Source of the DNA: a virus
Virus record (IMG/VR): IMGVR_UViG_3300017763_000017
Coordinates: 1 to 58,534 of that record
Strand: one strand, 5' to 3'
Length of the DNA stretch: 58,534 nt
The notes beneath the pieces are model-generated. The model did not search any database, was not told where the DNA came from, and saw nothing but the letters and a program-made list of their open reading frames with translations. Within the stretch, counting starts at the first letter, position 1; each line of letters opens with the position of its first letter. Both the position numbers and the translations under genes were made by a program. This document shows, in pieces, positions 2,615 to 56,703 of the stretch.

Positions 2615-4060
2615 TCAAGAATATGTACCAGCATTTACCTTACAAACTAGTGTTGCGATGTTACCAGAAGCCATACTAGGAAGTGTAGCGTCTGTACCAT
2701 TATATGCAGCGCCACTTATGTCTTCAAACAACTTAAACTTACCCGAGTCATTCGCATCTCTTGCAAGACCTGTATACTTAATGGCACCATCATTATACTG
2801 ACCAACAAATCCAATGTCAATACTATCTGCGGAATTGTTATGTGCAAGACCCATTAAAGAATCTTCAACCAATACCGTAGTGGTGTTTATTGTAGTAACA
2901 GTTCCATTTACAGTAAGATCTCCCGATATTGTGACATTATCAGGCATTCCAATTTGAACGTTTCCGGCAGTTTCTTCTACTGTAATTTCGTTTGCAGTTC
3001 CTGTAAATCCTAGAGATTGTCCGAGACCGATACTAAAACTACCAGAATCGGTTGAAGTAGTAACCGTAAATCCAGAATTGTCTAACTTAGAAGAAGGAAT
3101 ATCACCAGAAATACCAGTGCTTGGATTCAATCCTGTTGCATCAGTAAGATTAAACGCAGGGGTTGCGTCTGTTTCTCCAAGATTGAGAGACACACCACCA
3201 AATGATACACTAGAGTTGGCTAATTGGTTATTTCCAACACCGCCAGATTTAATATTAACAGTACCATACCCACTAATATCAGTAGCAATAGCAAAGTCAG
3301 TAGCAGCAAAAGCTGCAACGCCAACTTGGGTTGCGGTTGCTGCAGTTACACCTATTGTTACAGTGCTACCAAGTTGAACAACTTGTGTGCTAGTGGATCC
3401 ATCTATTTCAACACCACCGGTTCCACCTGAAAAATTGATGTTACTATTTGCTAGTTTTGAATTTGGAATTCCACTGTTACTCAAACCAAAAGTCAAGGTA
3501 TTACCAGAGGAAGAAGTTGCTACACCATCTGTACCAGAAATAAACGTATTAGAACCCAGACCAATAATTTTTGTAGTAGTATCATCGGTAATAAAGTTAA
3601 TAGCATCGTTTGCCAGAGAAACATTACCGACAGCACTCACAGTAAAGTCATCAGAGTTATATTTTGCAACACCAACTACACTAGTAGTCGCGGTGAGACC
3701 AGCTATTGTTAGAGTACCACTACCACTACCAGTAGTAGAAATACCAATACCCAATCCAGCCGCAACATTAACAGAACCAGTCAGAGCTTCGATACTCGTA
3801 ACACCAGCAGAAGCACCAATAGAGTTATCGACATAAGTCTTAATTGACTGCTGAGAAGCAAGAGAAGTTGCACTATTAGAGTTAAAGTCGTCTTCGTCTA
3901 GTATTTGTGCGCCAACAGTAACTGCAGTATTGTTTCCACCCGCACCAACGAATAGATTTTTTGATCCATGGGCGTAGGCTAATTCACCATCACTCAGATC
4001 CGTGGGCGCTCCTGTAGTGCTACCACCATATAAAATTTGAATAGTTGATTCTCTTGCCAT
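2615..4060 (-). CDS. Fiber-like virion protein with RESTIQILY N-terminal module
   Basis: This 481-residue protein begins MARESTIQILYGG, then DGELAYAHGSKNLFVG, paralogous to the N-terminus of the 223-residue protein at 1719-2390. The body consists of repetitive Gly/Thr/Ser/Asn-rich beta segments, with recurring SK(L)ANS and SFGGVSL-like units and many short valine-rich strands. This is typical of trimeric fibers. Residues near 380-420 (SGDLTVNGTVTTINTTTV, then EDSLMGLAHNN) resemble a segment common in marine phage tail proteins. No catalytic motif is seen. The likely role is a structural fiber component. Confidence 0.6.
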   Translation of the reverse strand: MARESTIQILYGGSTTGAPTDLSDGELAYAHGSKNLFVGAGGNNTAVTVGAQILDEDDFNSNSATSLASQQSIKTYVDNSIGASAGVTSIEALTGSVNVAAGLGIGISTTGSGSGTLTIAGLTATTSVVGVAKYNSDDFTVSAVGNVSLANDAINFITDDTTTKIIGLGSNTFISGTDGVATSSSGNTLTFGLSNSGIPNSKLANSNINFSGGTGGVEIDGSTSTQVVQLGSTVTIGVTAATATQVGVAAFAATDFAIATDISGYGTVNIKSGGVGNNQLANSSVSFGGVSLNLGETDATPAFNLTDATGLNPSTGISGDIPSSKLDNSGFTVTTSTDSGSFSIGLGQSLGFTGTANEITVEETAGNVQIGMPDNVTISGDLTVNGTVTTINTTTVLVEDSLMGLAHNNSADSIDIGFVGQYNDGAIKYTGLARDANDSGKFKLFEDISGAAYNGTDATLPSMASGNIATLVCKVNAGTYS

Positions 4061-49839: not shown

Positions 49840-52332
49840 TTATGATCTATTATCTCCAATAGGACAATCTGATGTTGTGTTACAATCACCATCTTGTGCG
49901 TTAGTTGCATTAAAATAGTAAACGGTTTTAATATCAGGACTGTTTATATTTATTCCATATAAAGGTAAATCTTTGGTTTTTATTGCCTGTATTTTTACTA
50001 CATGACCCATAGGAATTTCCAGACACTGAACCCCGGTCTGTGCATTTCCGTTATCATCGGTATTTAATCTTTGATAAGAGCCAACCGGCATCGAAGCAAA
50101 ACCAAGGGGATAATCTGTATGTTCTTTATTTGCATTTATTCCGGGACCAATCAAAATATCAACTTCTGCGCTAACTCCCGGAAGGTTTCCACCTGCACTG
50201 TTAAAATCTTGGTAGTGTAAAACAGAACCACCGCAAGTACCCGCAATATCTGGATACGTAAAATCATTATAAGTTGCACGATTTAAAACTTCATTTAGAT
50301 TATATGCACCTGAATAATCTGTAGTTGAACCTCTAGCACCATTTGGTTTTTCTACAACCAAAAATGGAGACCACTCGTCATTGTGGAAAGCAAGAGTAAC
50401 ACCAGAAGTAGTTCCTTCTATGTCACACTGTAAATATGTCTCCAATACTCGAGTTACAGAATTTTCATTTTCAAACGTTATTCCGCAAGTTGTACCTTGA
50501 ATTCGTATTTCACCCGACAGATCCCCAACCGTAAATGGAGTATCCACCTCCACACCATATTTCGATATTGTTAGATTATCCCAGTTAGATCCTGCCGTAA
50601 GTTCTATTCTATTTAAATCCTCCACACTTAAAGAATAATCTGCTGTTGGTCCAGTAGCACCTGCAAAATTAGCCAACTCTACCTTTGGAATAAATATAAC
50701 TTCATTCCAAGAATATCTCCATATATTTCTACCCACCAAACGAGTGTCTTTAACAACTGCCATAAATCCAGAATCTTCTACTTGTGGTGAGGTACAGCAA
50801 ACTGAATATTTGTAAATATTCCATTGTTCTTTATATGCTAATTTATCTCTATATTCTTTCTTTGCTTTGAATGTTGGAAGTTTGATTTCGTTTACTATTT
50901 TCTTAAGTGGTTCTCCGTCTAGATCCATACAATCAAACATTGCTTGCCATTTATTTGTCTCATAAGCATTAAAATGTGATAGATTGTCCGGTAAATCTCC
51001 ACTAGGACCCGATACACCAGAAACTACACTAAACAGTCCCTCTCCCCCTTCTCCGTCCTCTGAGGAGTCTCCAGAAGGACCAGAAGGACCAGAAGCAGCG
51101 ATTCGTTCATTCCCCATGAGCAACACAGATCTAATTTTGTCCTGATCGTTAAAAGCTCTGTCTGACTGATATCCAAAAAGAACATCATTCGCAGATAACT
51201 CATCGTTTTCTAGATCTTCCAACTGTTCTTTTGTAACGAACGGGAACGGATCACCATCTTCCACACCGTATAGTTTGTTAAATACATCTTTATAATTATA
51301 TACTACCTTTTCTTTGGTAAACTTTTCTCTGTCATCCATTAGTCTTGCATACGGAGATGAATAGTAGTCTGGTTCATATCTGTAATAATAAGAGTAGAGA
51401 GCACCATTAGAAAGACTTGAACTAAAAGAAAAATCGCTAATGACATCAAATCTATAAATTCTATTCTTACCGATCATATTACTGTCGAGTGAAAACGTTT
51501 TATACGTTTCATTTTGCTTTGATTCATATGCAAGAAGATCTATAGATTTAAAGTGGAAACCGTCTATGTCTTGCCAGAAGCAATAGTTTACTGCATTTGG
51601 GTTAGTACCACTGACGGCATAATCTTTGCAGTAATTTAACATCTGGAGTGTGTTCATTCCTTCCACTTGTTTTCTGTGTGGTAATGATATAAAGTGTGGT
51701 TTTATCCAGACATCATTCAAGGTTGCTTCGCTGTCGATTCCATTATCCAACGATTCTGCGATGACCTCCACTAAGCCTCGCTGATCTATACCACCAGAAG
51801 CACCATCAGAATCTTCTTCCGATTCACCACCAGAAGCATCTCCCGAAGAACCGTCTAAAGTAATCCCACTGCAAATTTTTCCTATGAATCCGGAGGGAAG
51901 AAGATCTGGCGTTTCGAATAGTTTTTTTGCATCGGTGCTGCAGAATTGAATTGTGACCTTTCGTGTTGTGAAACCTTCAGGTGTTTTATTTGTTTCTGAA
52001 AAATTAGAGGAATCCTGAAAAGATACAACAGAAAACTTTGGTAATTGAATAGACTCAGATTTTGTAGTTTCAGTATCTGGAGTTTTCATGGTTATAAGTA
52101 ATGTTTCGTTTCCGACCAATTGCATAAATTCGTAGTCACCCTGAGTTCCATCAAACACCAGACTACCATCCATCATTGGTGATGAAAGAGACTCAGTAAA
52201 AACTATGTAATCTAACGATAGTTTACCATCTGCATATGCTGTGGTTAAATCTATAATTGGTTCGTCATTCTCATCTAGAATCAAAACCGACTGAATTTCA
52301 ACTTCGTTGTGGTATGCTTGATATGACATCAT
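49840..52332 (-). CDS. Large baseplate hub-like protein (gp27 N-terminal-like)
   Basis: This 830-residue protein has an N-terminal layout like T4 gp27 (LDYIVFTESLSSPMMDGSLVFDG..., ETLLITMKTP). A central segment (NTLQMLNYCKDYAVSG...NYCFWQDIDGFHFKSIDLL) then parallels the gp27 region with FVFVWQDIMGVNMMD. The C-terminal ~300 residues add beta-rich repeats with several cysteines. It is far longer than gp27 (391) and lacks a lysozyme motif. It precedes the 303-residue hub-like gene by one codon. The start could be 52332 or 52329, since two ATGs are adjacent. Confidence 0.5.
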   Translation of the reverse strand: MMSYQAYHNEVEIQSVLILDENDEPIIDLTTAYADGKLSLDYIVFTESLSSPMMDGSLVFDGTQGDYEFMQLVGNETLLITMKTPDTETTKSESIQLPKFSVVSFQDSSNFSETNKTPEGFTTRKVTIQFCSTDAKKLFETPDLLPSGFIGKICSGITLDGSSGDASGGESEEDSDGASGGIDQRGLVEVIAESLDNGIDSEATLNDVWIKPHFISLPHRKQVEGMNTLQMLNYCKDYAVSGTNPNAVNYCFWQDIDGFHFKSIDLLAYESKQNETYKTFSLDSNMIGKNRIYRFDVISDFSFSSSLSNGALYSYYYRYEPDYYSSPYARLMDDREKFTKEKVVYNYKDVFNKLYGVEDGDPFPFVTKEQLEDLENDELSANDVLFGYQSDRAFNDQDKIRSVLLMGNERIAASGPSGPSGDSSEDGEGGEGLFSVVSGVSGPSGDLPDNLSHFNAYETNKWQAMFDCMDLDGEPLKKIVNEIKLPTFKAKKEYRDKLAYKEQWNIYKYSVCCTSPQVEDSGFMAVVKDTRLVGRNIWRYSWNEVIFIPKVELANFAGATGPTADYSLSVEDLNRIELTAGSNWDNLTISKYGVEVDTPFTVGDLSGEIRIQGTTCGITFENENSVTRVLETYLQCDIEGTTSGVTLAFHNDEWSPFLVVEKPNGARGSTTDYSGAYNLNEVLNRATYNDFTYPDIAGTCGGSVLHYQDFNSAGGNLPGVSAEVDILIGPGINANKEHTDYPLGFASMPVGSYQRLNTDDNGNAQTGVQCLEIPMGHVVKIQAIKTKDLPLYGININSPDIKTVYYFNATNAQDGDCNTTSDCPIGDNRS

Positions 52333-54252: not shown

Positions 54253-54684
54253 ATGGCATATAAATCCAGATATAAACCAAATAACCCAAGCAAGTACGTC
54301 GGTGACGTAGATAAGATAGTTTGTAGGTCTACTTGGGAAAGAAAAATGTGCAAATTTCTGGATCTCAATGAAAACGTAATCTCATGGGCGTCAGAAGAAT
54401 TAGCAATCCCCTATTTTTCTCCGGTCGATGATAAATGGCATCGATACTATCCAGATTTCATGTGTAAAATCAAAAACAAAACCGGGTCCATAGACAAACT
54501 GATCATAGAAGTCAAACCGGAAAAGCAAACAAAACCACCCAAGTCTAAAAAACAAACAAGAAATTATTTGAGAGAGATGAAAACTTTTGCCATAAATACC
54601 TATAAGTGGGAAGCAGCAGAAAAATTCTGCCAAGAAAATGGTTGGGTCTTTAAAATCTTAACAGAAAAGGATCTCTTCAAATGA
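54253..54684 (+). CDS. 4: Head completion protein gp4
   Basis: This 143-residue protein matches T4 gp4 (150) from the first residue: MAYKSRYKPNNPSKYVGDVDKIVCRSTWERKMCKFLDLN (T4: MAY....P.N.SKY.GD...I.YRS.WE). It continues with IPYFSPVDDKWHRYYPDFMCK and IIEVKPEKQTKPPK. gp4 completes filled heads before tail attachment. The D/E...EVKP pattern resembles a nuclease-like fold. No Shine-Dalgarno site is seen. The stop overlaps the next start (ATGA). Confidence 0.92.
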   Translation: MAYKSRYKPNNPSKYVGDVDKIVCRSTWERKMCKFLDLNENVISWASEELAIPYFSPVDDKWHRYYPDFMCKIKNKTGSIDKLIIEVKPEKQTKPPKSKKQTRNYLREMKTFAINTYKWEAAEKFCQENGWVFKILTEKDLFK

Positions 54685-55292
54685 ATCTATCCACAATAAA
54701 GAACAAGTTCTTTAACTATGATCGCGTACTCAGACAGAATCGTTTTTCTGTGGATATGTCGTTTGTTAGTCCTGTTGATGGCGGCGGCGTTTTTGCTGCA
54801 GGAGAACCTGCAGTTCTTGTTTCATCGCCAACAGTAAACCTGATGATGGCACCATTTGAGTTTCAAAATGTTCCTATCAATATACCAGTAAAAAGAGAAC
54901 CACAGCAAGATTTGTTAATTCGTTTTTATGCAGTAGAAAGTTTGGATATATACACCCAACTCCTAACATTGATCAAACAATATGGTGGTGAGCCAACTGT
55001 AGCGAATGCAAGACCGACTGCTTACGCACCCGGCACTTTTTATAATGACACCATAAGAAATAACAGAATTTTAGTTAGAATGATCACATCCGATGGTAGA
55101 CCGGGTGGTATTAACCCACAGTCAGACGGAGCGGTAAATTACATACAGTATGCTGATGCATATCCACACTTTATACAGCCGATAAATTTCAGTTCGGAAT
55201 CTGATTCACAACCACTTACATTCGACGTACTATTTAAATATGCATACAACTTTACCAGATACGAGGCTCAACTCGGCGGTACTAACTTTTGA
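54681..55292 (+). CDS. Baseplate-tail tube initiator gp54-like
   Basis: This 203-residue protein has YDRVLRQNRFSVDMSF (about 13-28), EPQQDLLIRFYAVESLDIYTQLLTLIKQYGG (about 73-103), and ADAYPHFIQPINFSSESDSQPLTFDVLFKYAYNF (about 158-191). The order matches the tube-fold protein gp54 of T4 (FQRNNMFSCVF, LDPLVISFRMDS, ITTFDVTFAYRVM). It is shorter than T4 gp54 (320). The call is a pattern match; another tube-fold protein is possible. It overlaps gp4 by four bases. Confidence 0.5.
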   Translation: MNLSTIKNKFFNYDRVLRQNRFSVDMSFVSPVDGGGVFAAGEPAVLVSSPTVNLMMAPFEFQNVPINIPVKREPQQDLLIRFYAVESLDIYTQLLTLIKQYGGEPTVANARPTAYAPGTFYNDTIRNNRILVRMITSDGRPGGINPQSDGAVNYIQYADAYPHFIQPINFSSESDSQPLTFDVLFKYAYNFTRYEAQLGGTNF

Positions 55293-55304: not shown

Positions 55305-56036
55305 ATGATACATGAAATAATAAAGAAAAGTATCCCAGAATATACATGTAAACTTCCCATTAGTAAAAAAGAAATAAAGATACGTCCCCTTCTAGTGAAG
55401 GAAGAGAAGTTTATAACCCAAATAAATGAATTATCAGAATCACTCTCTGATAAGTTGTACTCGCTAACGCAGTTAGTAAACTCTTGTTGTGAAAACAAAA
55501 TAGATTCTATGAAAATTTCTATGTTTGATTTCCAATACCTATTGGTTGATATTAGAAAACGATCAATAACAGAAGAAACCAAGATGAAAATCCAGTGTCC
55601 ATACACAGAAGAACCTGTGGTAGTTACTATAAATTTTAATGAATTGCTTGCTAATGCAAATACTGGTAAAAAGACAAAGCAAGTAAAAATTAATGATACT
55701 ACATTACTAAAACTACGAGCGCCTAATGTAAATGATGCACTATCTGTAGGTGGTAATATATCAACCGATGATGATATTATGAATTTAATTGCACAAGTAT
55801 TAACTGATCTAGAAACAGAACACAAATCAATAGATTTGAAGGCAGAACCTATAAATGAAAAATTACAAATTATAGAATCGTTACCTAGAACCACATACAC
55901 AGAATTAAAAGAATTTGTACTCACCAGTTTTTTCATACTAAATTTGAAGTATCAAACATCAGATTCTATCGAAAGGACGGTGAAAGTTTCTGACTTTGCA
56001 AATTTTTTAAGGTTTTATTCGGATACGCTGACTTAG
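55305..56036 (+). CDS. 26: Baseplate hub assembly protein gp26
   Basis: This 243-residue protein matches gp26-like baseplate proteins: MIHEIIKKSIPEYTCKLPISKKEIKIRPLLVKEEKFI (1-37), then FDFQYLLVDIRKRSITEETKMKIQCPYTEEPVVVTINFNELL. In T4, gp26 (208) and gp51 act in hub assembly before tape-measure-dependent tube growth. Ten codons before the stop lies a perfect -1 slippery heptamer, TTTTTTA (56003-56009), leading into the next ORF. A weak GAG-type ribosome site precedes the start. Confidence 0.8.
   Translation: MIHEIIKKSIPEYTCKLPISKKEIKIRPLLVKEEKFITQINELSESLSDKLYSLTQLVNSCCENKIDSMKISMFDFQYLLVDIRKRSITEETKMKIQCPYTEEPVVVTINFNELLANANTGKKTKQVKINDTTLLKLRAPNVNDALSVGGNISTDDDIMNLIAQVLTDLETEHKSIDLKAEPINEKLQIIESLPRTTYTELKEFVLTSFFILNLKYQTSDSIERTVKVSDFANFLRFYSDTLT
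56003..56009 (+). promoter_or_regulatory. -1 ribosomal frameshift heptamer TTTTTTA
   Basis: T TTT TTA lies in the correct phase (X XXY YYZ) within gp26: codons AAT TTT TTA AGG. A -1 slip enters a frame open from here to 56197, through the ATG of the 48-residue ORF. This is the architecture of lambda-type G/GT tail chaperone genes. The fusion would have about 298 residues. Confidence 0.7.
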
Positions 56037-56053
56037 TTAAGGTATTGCAGCTT

Positions 56054-56200
56054 ATGTTTAAAATGACAGAAAATACCAAACTGAATCTACATGAGATAGA
56101 AAACATGATCATATGGGAACGTGATGTTTACGTCACCATGATGAACATGGAAATAGAAAAGAAAAACGAAGAAATTAGAGAAAGAAGATTAACCTCATGA
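56054..56200 (+). CDS. Small ORF at gp51 position; likely frameshift extension of gp26
   Basis: As a separate ORF this is 48 residues (MFKMTENTKLNLHEIENMIIWERDVYVTMMNMEIEKKNEEIRERR, written here as motifs: NLHEIENMIIWERD, then MEIEKKNEEI). No clear ribosome site precedes its ATG. The same frame extends upstream to the TTTTTTA site at 56003, so most product may be a gp26 fusion. In T4, gene 51 follows 26. The stop overlaps the next start (ATGA). A hub assembly role is inferred. Confidence 0.65.
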   Translation: MFKMTENTKLNLHEIENMIIWERDVYVTMMNMEIEKKNEEIRERRLTS

Positions 56201-56703
56201 CGGATCAAATAAAAATACTAAACGAAGCAAAAGAAACACTGTCTTTTAAAAATATTACTGATACCATGATGAAGTCTGCTCCAGCAGGAATGATGGATCA
56301 AGTTGACAGCCTTTCTGGTGGAATTAAAGATATGTTTATGCAGGAACTAGGTGGCATGGTAGATATGGAAGATACCGGTCTCAAAGATCTATTTGGTTCT
56401 ATACTACCAGAAGAAGTTAAAAATTTTCTTGGATTCGATTCAACTCCAGAACTGAAGGATGCTGAAACCCCAGATACAATGGGACCACACATGCCATCAG
56501 AAACTCAACAGAGAGTTGATGTTCAAAATCAACAAGCAGCAGATGCTTCAAGTAGATCAATTAATAACCCCTCGGCAGAAAACCAAGGGGTCATTAAGGA
56601 CATGTCTAAAGCGACTACACCAAATGCAGATCCAGAAAATTCTGTTTATGCAATGCAGGCTTCGATAAACTCACCACCTGCACATAGAACAAATTTCCTA
56701 TGA
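56197..56703 (+). CDS. Hypothetical protein after gp26/gp51
   Basis: This 168-residue protein has an amphipathic helical N-terminal half (TLSFKNITDTMMKSAPAGMMDQVDSLSGGIKDMFMQELGG, about 13-52) and a polar C-terminal half rich in Gln, Ser, Asn and Ala. I do not recognise a family. It starts at the gp51-position stop and ends six bases inside the convergent gp32 gene. It might be a hub or tape-measure related accessory protein, by position only. An imperfect hairpin (56567-56591) in its 3' part could affect gp32 termination. Confidence 0.5.
   Translation: MTDQIKILNEAKETLSFKNITDTMMKSAPAGMMDQVDSLSGGIKDMFMQELGGMVDMEDTGLKDLFGSILPEEVKNFLGFDSTPELKDAETPDTMGPHMPSETQQRVDVQNQQAADASSRSINNPSAENQGVIKDMSKATTPNADPENSVYAMQASINSPPAHRTNFL

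Follow-up and report, generated by a model that had tools for sequence, protein, structure and literature searches.

Frameshifting between the G and T genes is conserved across long-tailed phages, with T4 as an exception, according to a 2016 review (PMC5009743). Tail assembly chaperones of T4-like phages were identified by Vladimirov, Gautam and Davidson (Virology 2022, 566:9-15), whose work is conveyed here by two citing papers (PMC10885494, PMC12846349). In these accounts, the PRFect paper (PMC10885494) cites the study for the presence, in some T4-like phages, of distinct genes for the short and the fused protein, and PMC12846349 cites it for poly-T slip signals in T4-like TAC-N genes. In a review of T4, gp26 and gp51 both figure as chaperones of hub assembly, and gp51 is described as absent from the final particle (PMC3004832). 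As far as the citing papers relay it, the production of short and long forms by frameshifting in T4-like phages was already reported in 2022, and the locus described below is a correct example that is not new in kind. The initial annotation of this DNA, in equating the T4 hub assembly factors with the lambda G/GT chaperones, was right in kind and restated a published equivalence.

The gp26 locus and its overlapping -1 frame

The DNA analysed here, hereafter the window, is an IMG/VR virus record of 58,534 nucleotides, corresponding to a 58.5-kb fragment. Its portal protein is nearest to those of Pelagibacter phage Mosig and of cyanophages (~54% identity), which fits a marine T4-like phage. The features of the locus are collected in Table 1.

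Table 1. Features of the gp26 region in the window; L001 is a related IMG/VR locus
Feature	Position	Strand	Evidence
Tail-tube-like gene, upstream of gp26	54681..55292	+	phrog_45 tail tube, E 2.9e-10
243-residue gp26 homologue, the short form (TAC-N)	55305..56036	+	PF12322, phrog_150, AlphaFold2
15 consecutive codons (45 nt) identical to L001	55974..56018	+	Permutation 5e-5 for run length
T TTT TTA slip heptamer (X XXY YYZ phase), first base 31 nt ahead of the gp26 stop	56003..56009	+	Codon phase and conservation
-1 frame extension, 63 residues and TGA; predicted C-terminal domain of the long form; '51'-position ORF	56009..56200	+	phrog_634, open frame
168-aa downstream ORF, ATG overlapping the fusion-frame TGA	56197..56703	+	Similar start overlap in L001

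The gp26 homologue matches the T4_baseplate profile PF12322 over residues 11-235 (E 5.4e-26; 92.1 bits against a curated cut-off of 24.5) as well as phrog_150 (E 4.6e-28). In Pfam, PF12322 was the sole family matched, and nothing of lambda type was found. No solved relative was found by sequence, and comparison of the AlphaFold2 model (mean pLDDT 93) with PDB folds gave no convincing match, the best being 5ir0_A (Z 5.0, rmsd 4.1, 82 aligned residues). Among predicted viral structures, baseplate hub proteins were numerous in the matches to the model.

The downstream ORF of 168 residues is conserved in L001, had no convincing family match in Pfam or PHROG profiles and might encode a protein of the hub or of the tape-measure region. 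Directly after gp26 and its extension, the window has no gene that could be recognised as a tape measure gene; in phage phiM12, a tape-measure-like gene lies one gene further downstream. Further upstream, the window encodes an 830-aa tail protein (phrog_350; 49840-52332, minus strand) whose low-complexity stretches are rich in Gly, Ser and Pro (for example SGPSGPSGD), and a gp4-like head closure protein (54253-54684) that also matches a TnsA-like endonuclease N-terminal family (PF08722).

The codons at the heptamer read AAT TTT TTA, exactly in phase with the gp26 ORF, and no stop interrupts the -1 frame between 55994 and its TGA at 56198-56200. A slip after TTA would join 235 residues of gp26 to 63 new ones. 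Both the phasing of the heptamer and the length of about 298 residues that the initial annotation gave for the proposed fusion are thereby borne out by the codons. The 63-residue extension matches phrog_634, 'baseplate hub assembly catalyst', over its residues 2-59 (E 3e-14), a homology that begins upstream of the first in-frame starts, TTG at 56045 and ATG at 56054. Its model is predicted to be helical (pLDDT 85), and the best fold match for the extension alone reached only Z 2.1 (rmsd 3.1 over 42 residues). The heptamer TTTTTTA is not in excess in this AT-rich window (43 observed for 41 expected), so that its count is no evidence and its meaning rests on phase, place and conservation.

Taken with the conservation described below, the phase, the open frame and the homology upstream of any start lead us to read the locus as one gene very probably yielding two proteins from one start, through a -1 slip at T TTT TTA. 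Most ribosomes would terminate at 56034-56036 and release the short form. Some would slip back one base on the heptamer, the tRNAs in their P and A sites each pairing anew with a TTT, and would read on to position 56200, giving a product of 298 residues in which gp26, up to Leu235, is followed by a helical C-terminal domain. By analogy with lambda gpG and gpGT, the short form would coat the tape measure protein, and the long form would use its C-terminal domain to recruit tail-tube or hub proteins. We infer slippage itself and its efficiency from the sequence, and the chaperone role of the two forms from this analogy and the T4 literature.

Conservation of the slip site and competing readings

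The initial annotation had named conservation of the heptamer and of the -1 frame in related phages as the way to check its proposal, and the proposal withstands this check. The survey comprised 160 IMG/VR loci collected by alignment-guided searches, L001 and five isolate genomes, which left 149 distinct junctions after removal of duplicates. A phased slippery heptamer lies at most 34 nt from the gp26 stop in 149 of the 149, which share descent and are not independent. It is T TTT TTN in 148 of them and T TTA AAA in the remaining one (L009). The -1 frame is open past the stop in all junctions surveyed, for 54-72 extra codons where its end falls inside the contig. When the codons of the relatives' genes were shuffled and the last 12 codons scored, a phased TTTTTTN arose in 1.5% of cases, and any phased X XXY YYZ heptamer in 8.7%. 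Among control ORF ends from the same loci, only 1 of 384 combined a phased heptamer with at least 50 open -1 codons.

The predicted slip site is retained in this phage, in cyanophages, in KVP40, in Sinorhizobium phage phiM12 and in Stenotrophomonas phage Marzo. In KVP40, S-BM3, Marzo, P-SSM2, S-PM2 and others it takes the form T TTT TTC and starts 10 nt before the stop. At this place the L009 junction has T TTA AAA, with an 11-bp hairpin after it; if no slippage took place, it would be hard to see why one canonical slippery sequence should have been exchanged for another. The exchange also argues against the idea that RNA polymerase, slipping on the T6 run, makes a -1 message. The slip site of the window is indeed a homopolymer run. 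However, six T are short for polymerase slippage, the L009 sequence shortens the run yet keeps tandem tRNA slippage, and the Shine-Dalgarno (SD)-like and hairpin elements described below act on ribosomes, so that we give transcriptional slippage hardly any credence.

A second alternative is that the '51' ORF encodes a separate small protein, made by re-initiation after the gp26 stop from the TTG or the ATG mentioned above. The initial annotation saw no evident ribosome site for this ORF, which is slightly too strong: an AAGG at 56039-56042 precedes the TTG by 2 nt and the ATG by 11 nt. Moreover, gp51 has a gene of its own in public records, and TAATG or TGATG overlaps occur in some relatives. 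Against this, the AAGG is missing in L001, the position of the first ATG varies among relatives (n=146; offset 3 in 55, offset 19 in 41, offset 32 in 9), and an SD core precedes a start within the first nine codons in only 4 of 167. Conserved residues and homology also precede the candidate starts, and a separate protein would leave the conservation of the heptamer without a reason. With starts that are not conserved and homology that begins upstream of them, a separate small protein is disfavoured and in our view very unlikely.

Both products might also coexist, a re-initiated small C-terminal protein being added to the frameshift fusion in phages with TAATG-like overlaps. KVP40 and Marzo combine the heptamer with an overlapping ATG, and Vibrio phage K413 has the ATG alone. 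In the window, by contrast, the first in-frame ATG stands ~18 nt past the stop behind a weak site and is not conserved in L001, and such an extra product seems unlikely, if less so than a separate protein in place of the fusion. At the K413 junction (L173, ~3142-3348), the -1 frame continues for 58 codons beyond the end of gp26, no phased heptamer was found, and stop and start overlap as TAATG instead. The mechanism may therefore vary, K413 possibly relying on re-initiation or having lost slippage.

Many public records either show a stand-alone 'gp51' gene in place of the long-form domain or omit the domain; in S-BM3 (L169, OQ319121.1), the -1 extension at 1508-1692 falls where no gene is annotated, and the long-form domain is absent from the public record.

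Sequences flanking the slip site

In the relatives, the predicted slip site is accompanied by further elements. An SD-like core (GGAG, GAGG, AGGA or AAGG) lies 4-20 nt upstream of the heptamer in 123 of 147 relatives, with a spacing of mostly 8-11 nt. The Glu-Gly pair encoded at this site uses GAG in 85 of 118 cases versus 15 of 69 elsewhere (Fisher 2e-11, relatedness being ignored). The 65 nt directly 3' of the heptamer fold more stably than controls (mean z -1.59, versus -0.42 and -0.48). Clear downstream hairpins are present in S-PM2, P-SSM2 and L009, and a hairpin pair covaries as U-A, G-C or A-U in 31 relatives, a subset preselected for pairing that makes the test partly circular.

No downstream hairpin was found at the site of the window or of L001 (z from -0.3 to +2.1), and the upstream SD-like core is absent in both, which makes the efficiency of frameshifting there uncertain. 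L001 is the only close relative in IMG/VR (62% protein identity) and keeps the frame, the heptamer and the extension. Within the run of codons that it shares with the window, the first ten (AGG to AAT) are all identical, whereas elsewhere ~57% of the codons for identical residues are the same. This excess is only suggestive, and the 45-nt block could possibly be a cis element, or the mark of a conserved protein end combined with dual coding. We tentatively entertain, as a rather doubtful scenario, that the clade of the window, with a site ~20 nt farther from the stop, has lost the SD-like core and the hairpin and uses either a new stimulator in 55974-56018 or the heptamer and AGG alone. If this is true, the bacterial -1 signal would be a novel one, or unusual in needing no stimulator.

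Relation to T4 and other frameshifting systems

T4 gp26 and T4 gp51 each match PF12322 over their full length, and the phrog_634 region is present at the end of gp51. A profile of the extension aligns to residues 207-244 of T4 gp51 (E 6e-5) and finds no match in T4 gp26. Likewise, a note in the KVP40 record itself likens the small protein to the C-terminus of T4 gp51. Judged by these profiles, T4 gp51 is a gp26-like protein with a C-terminal extension, and T4 has a pair of paralogous genes for the short and the long form, since both proteins are full PF12322 members and gp51 alone has the extension. The ORF of the window, initially annotated as being in the gp51 position, corresponds to this extension and not to the whole of gp51. 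The initial annotation also described T4 genes 26 and 51 as adjacent; they are neighbours but divergently oriented. The abstract of the 2022 study reportedly names these two genes and states that several groups of T4-like phages have retained frameshifting. In the T4 group, frameshifting would have been replaced by two genes, 26 for the short form and 51 for a pre-fused long form. On this reading, T4 and the window share a gp26 that is the short form and a long form composed of a short-form-like domain and the same C-terminal extension, whereas T4 has two divergent genes and no need of a frameshift.

Bacterial -1 frameshift signals of the dnaX type consist of an SD-like element, a heptamer and a hairpin. 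Relatives of this phage combine all three, unlike the window, where the heptamer is the only recognisable element. With lambda gpG and gpGT, the locus shares a short form, a predicted -1 frameshifted long form and a place near the tail tube gene. It differs from them in that the gene directly following was not recognised as a tape measure gene and in that no sequence relation was detectable with Pfam profiles; function is assigned here by analogy.

The closest likeness is with the T4-like gp26/gp51 system of Vladimirov, Gautam and Davidson as presented in the papers that cite it: the family, the place, the poly-T slip at the end of TAC-N and the -1 C-terminal domain are the same. The clade of the window departs from that system by a heptamer that starts 31 nt before the stop versus 10, and as a divergent lineage in which no SD-like core or hairpin was found. 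Read in this way, a divergent marine lineage would confirm that T4-like phages share the G/GT strategy of a short and a long chaperone with other long-tailed phages.
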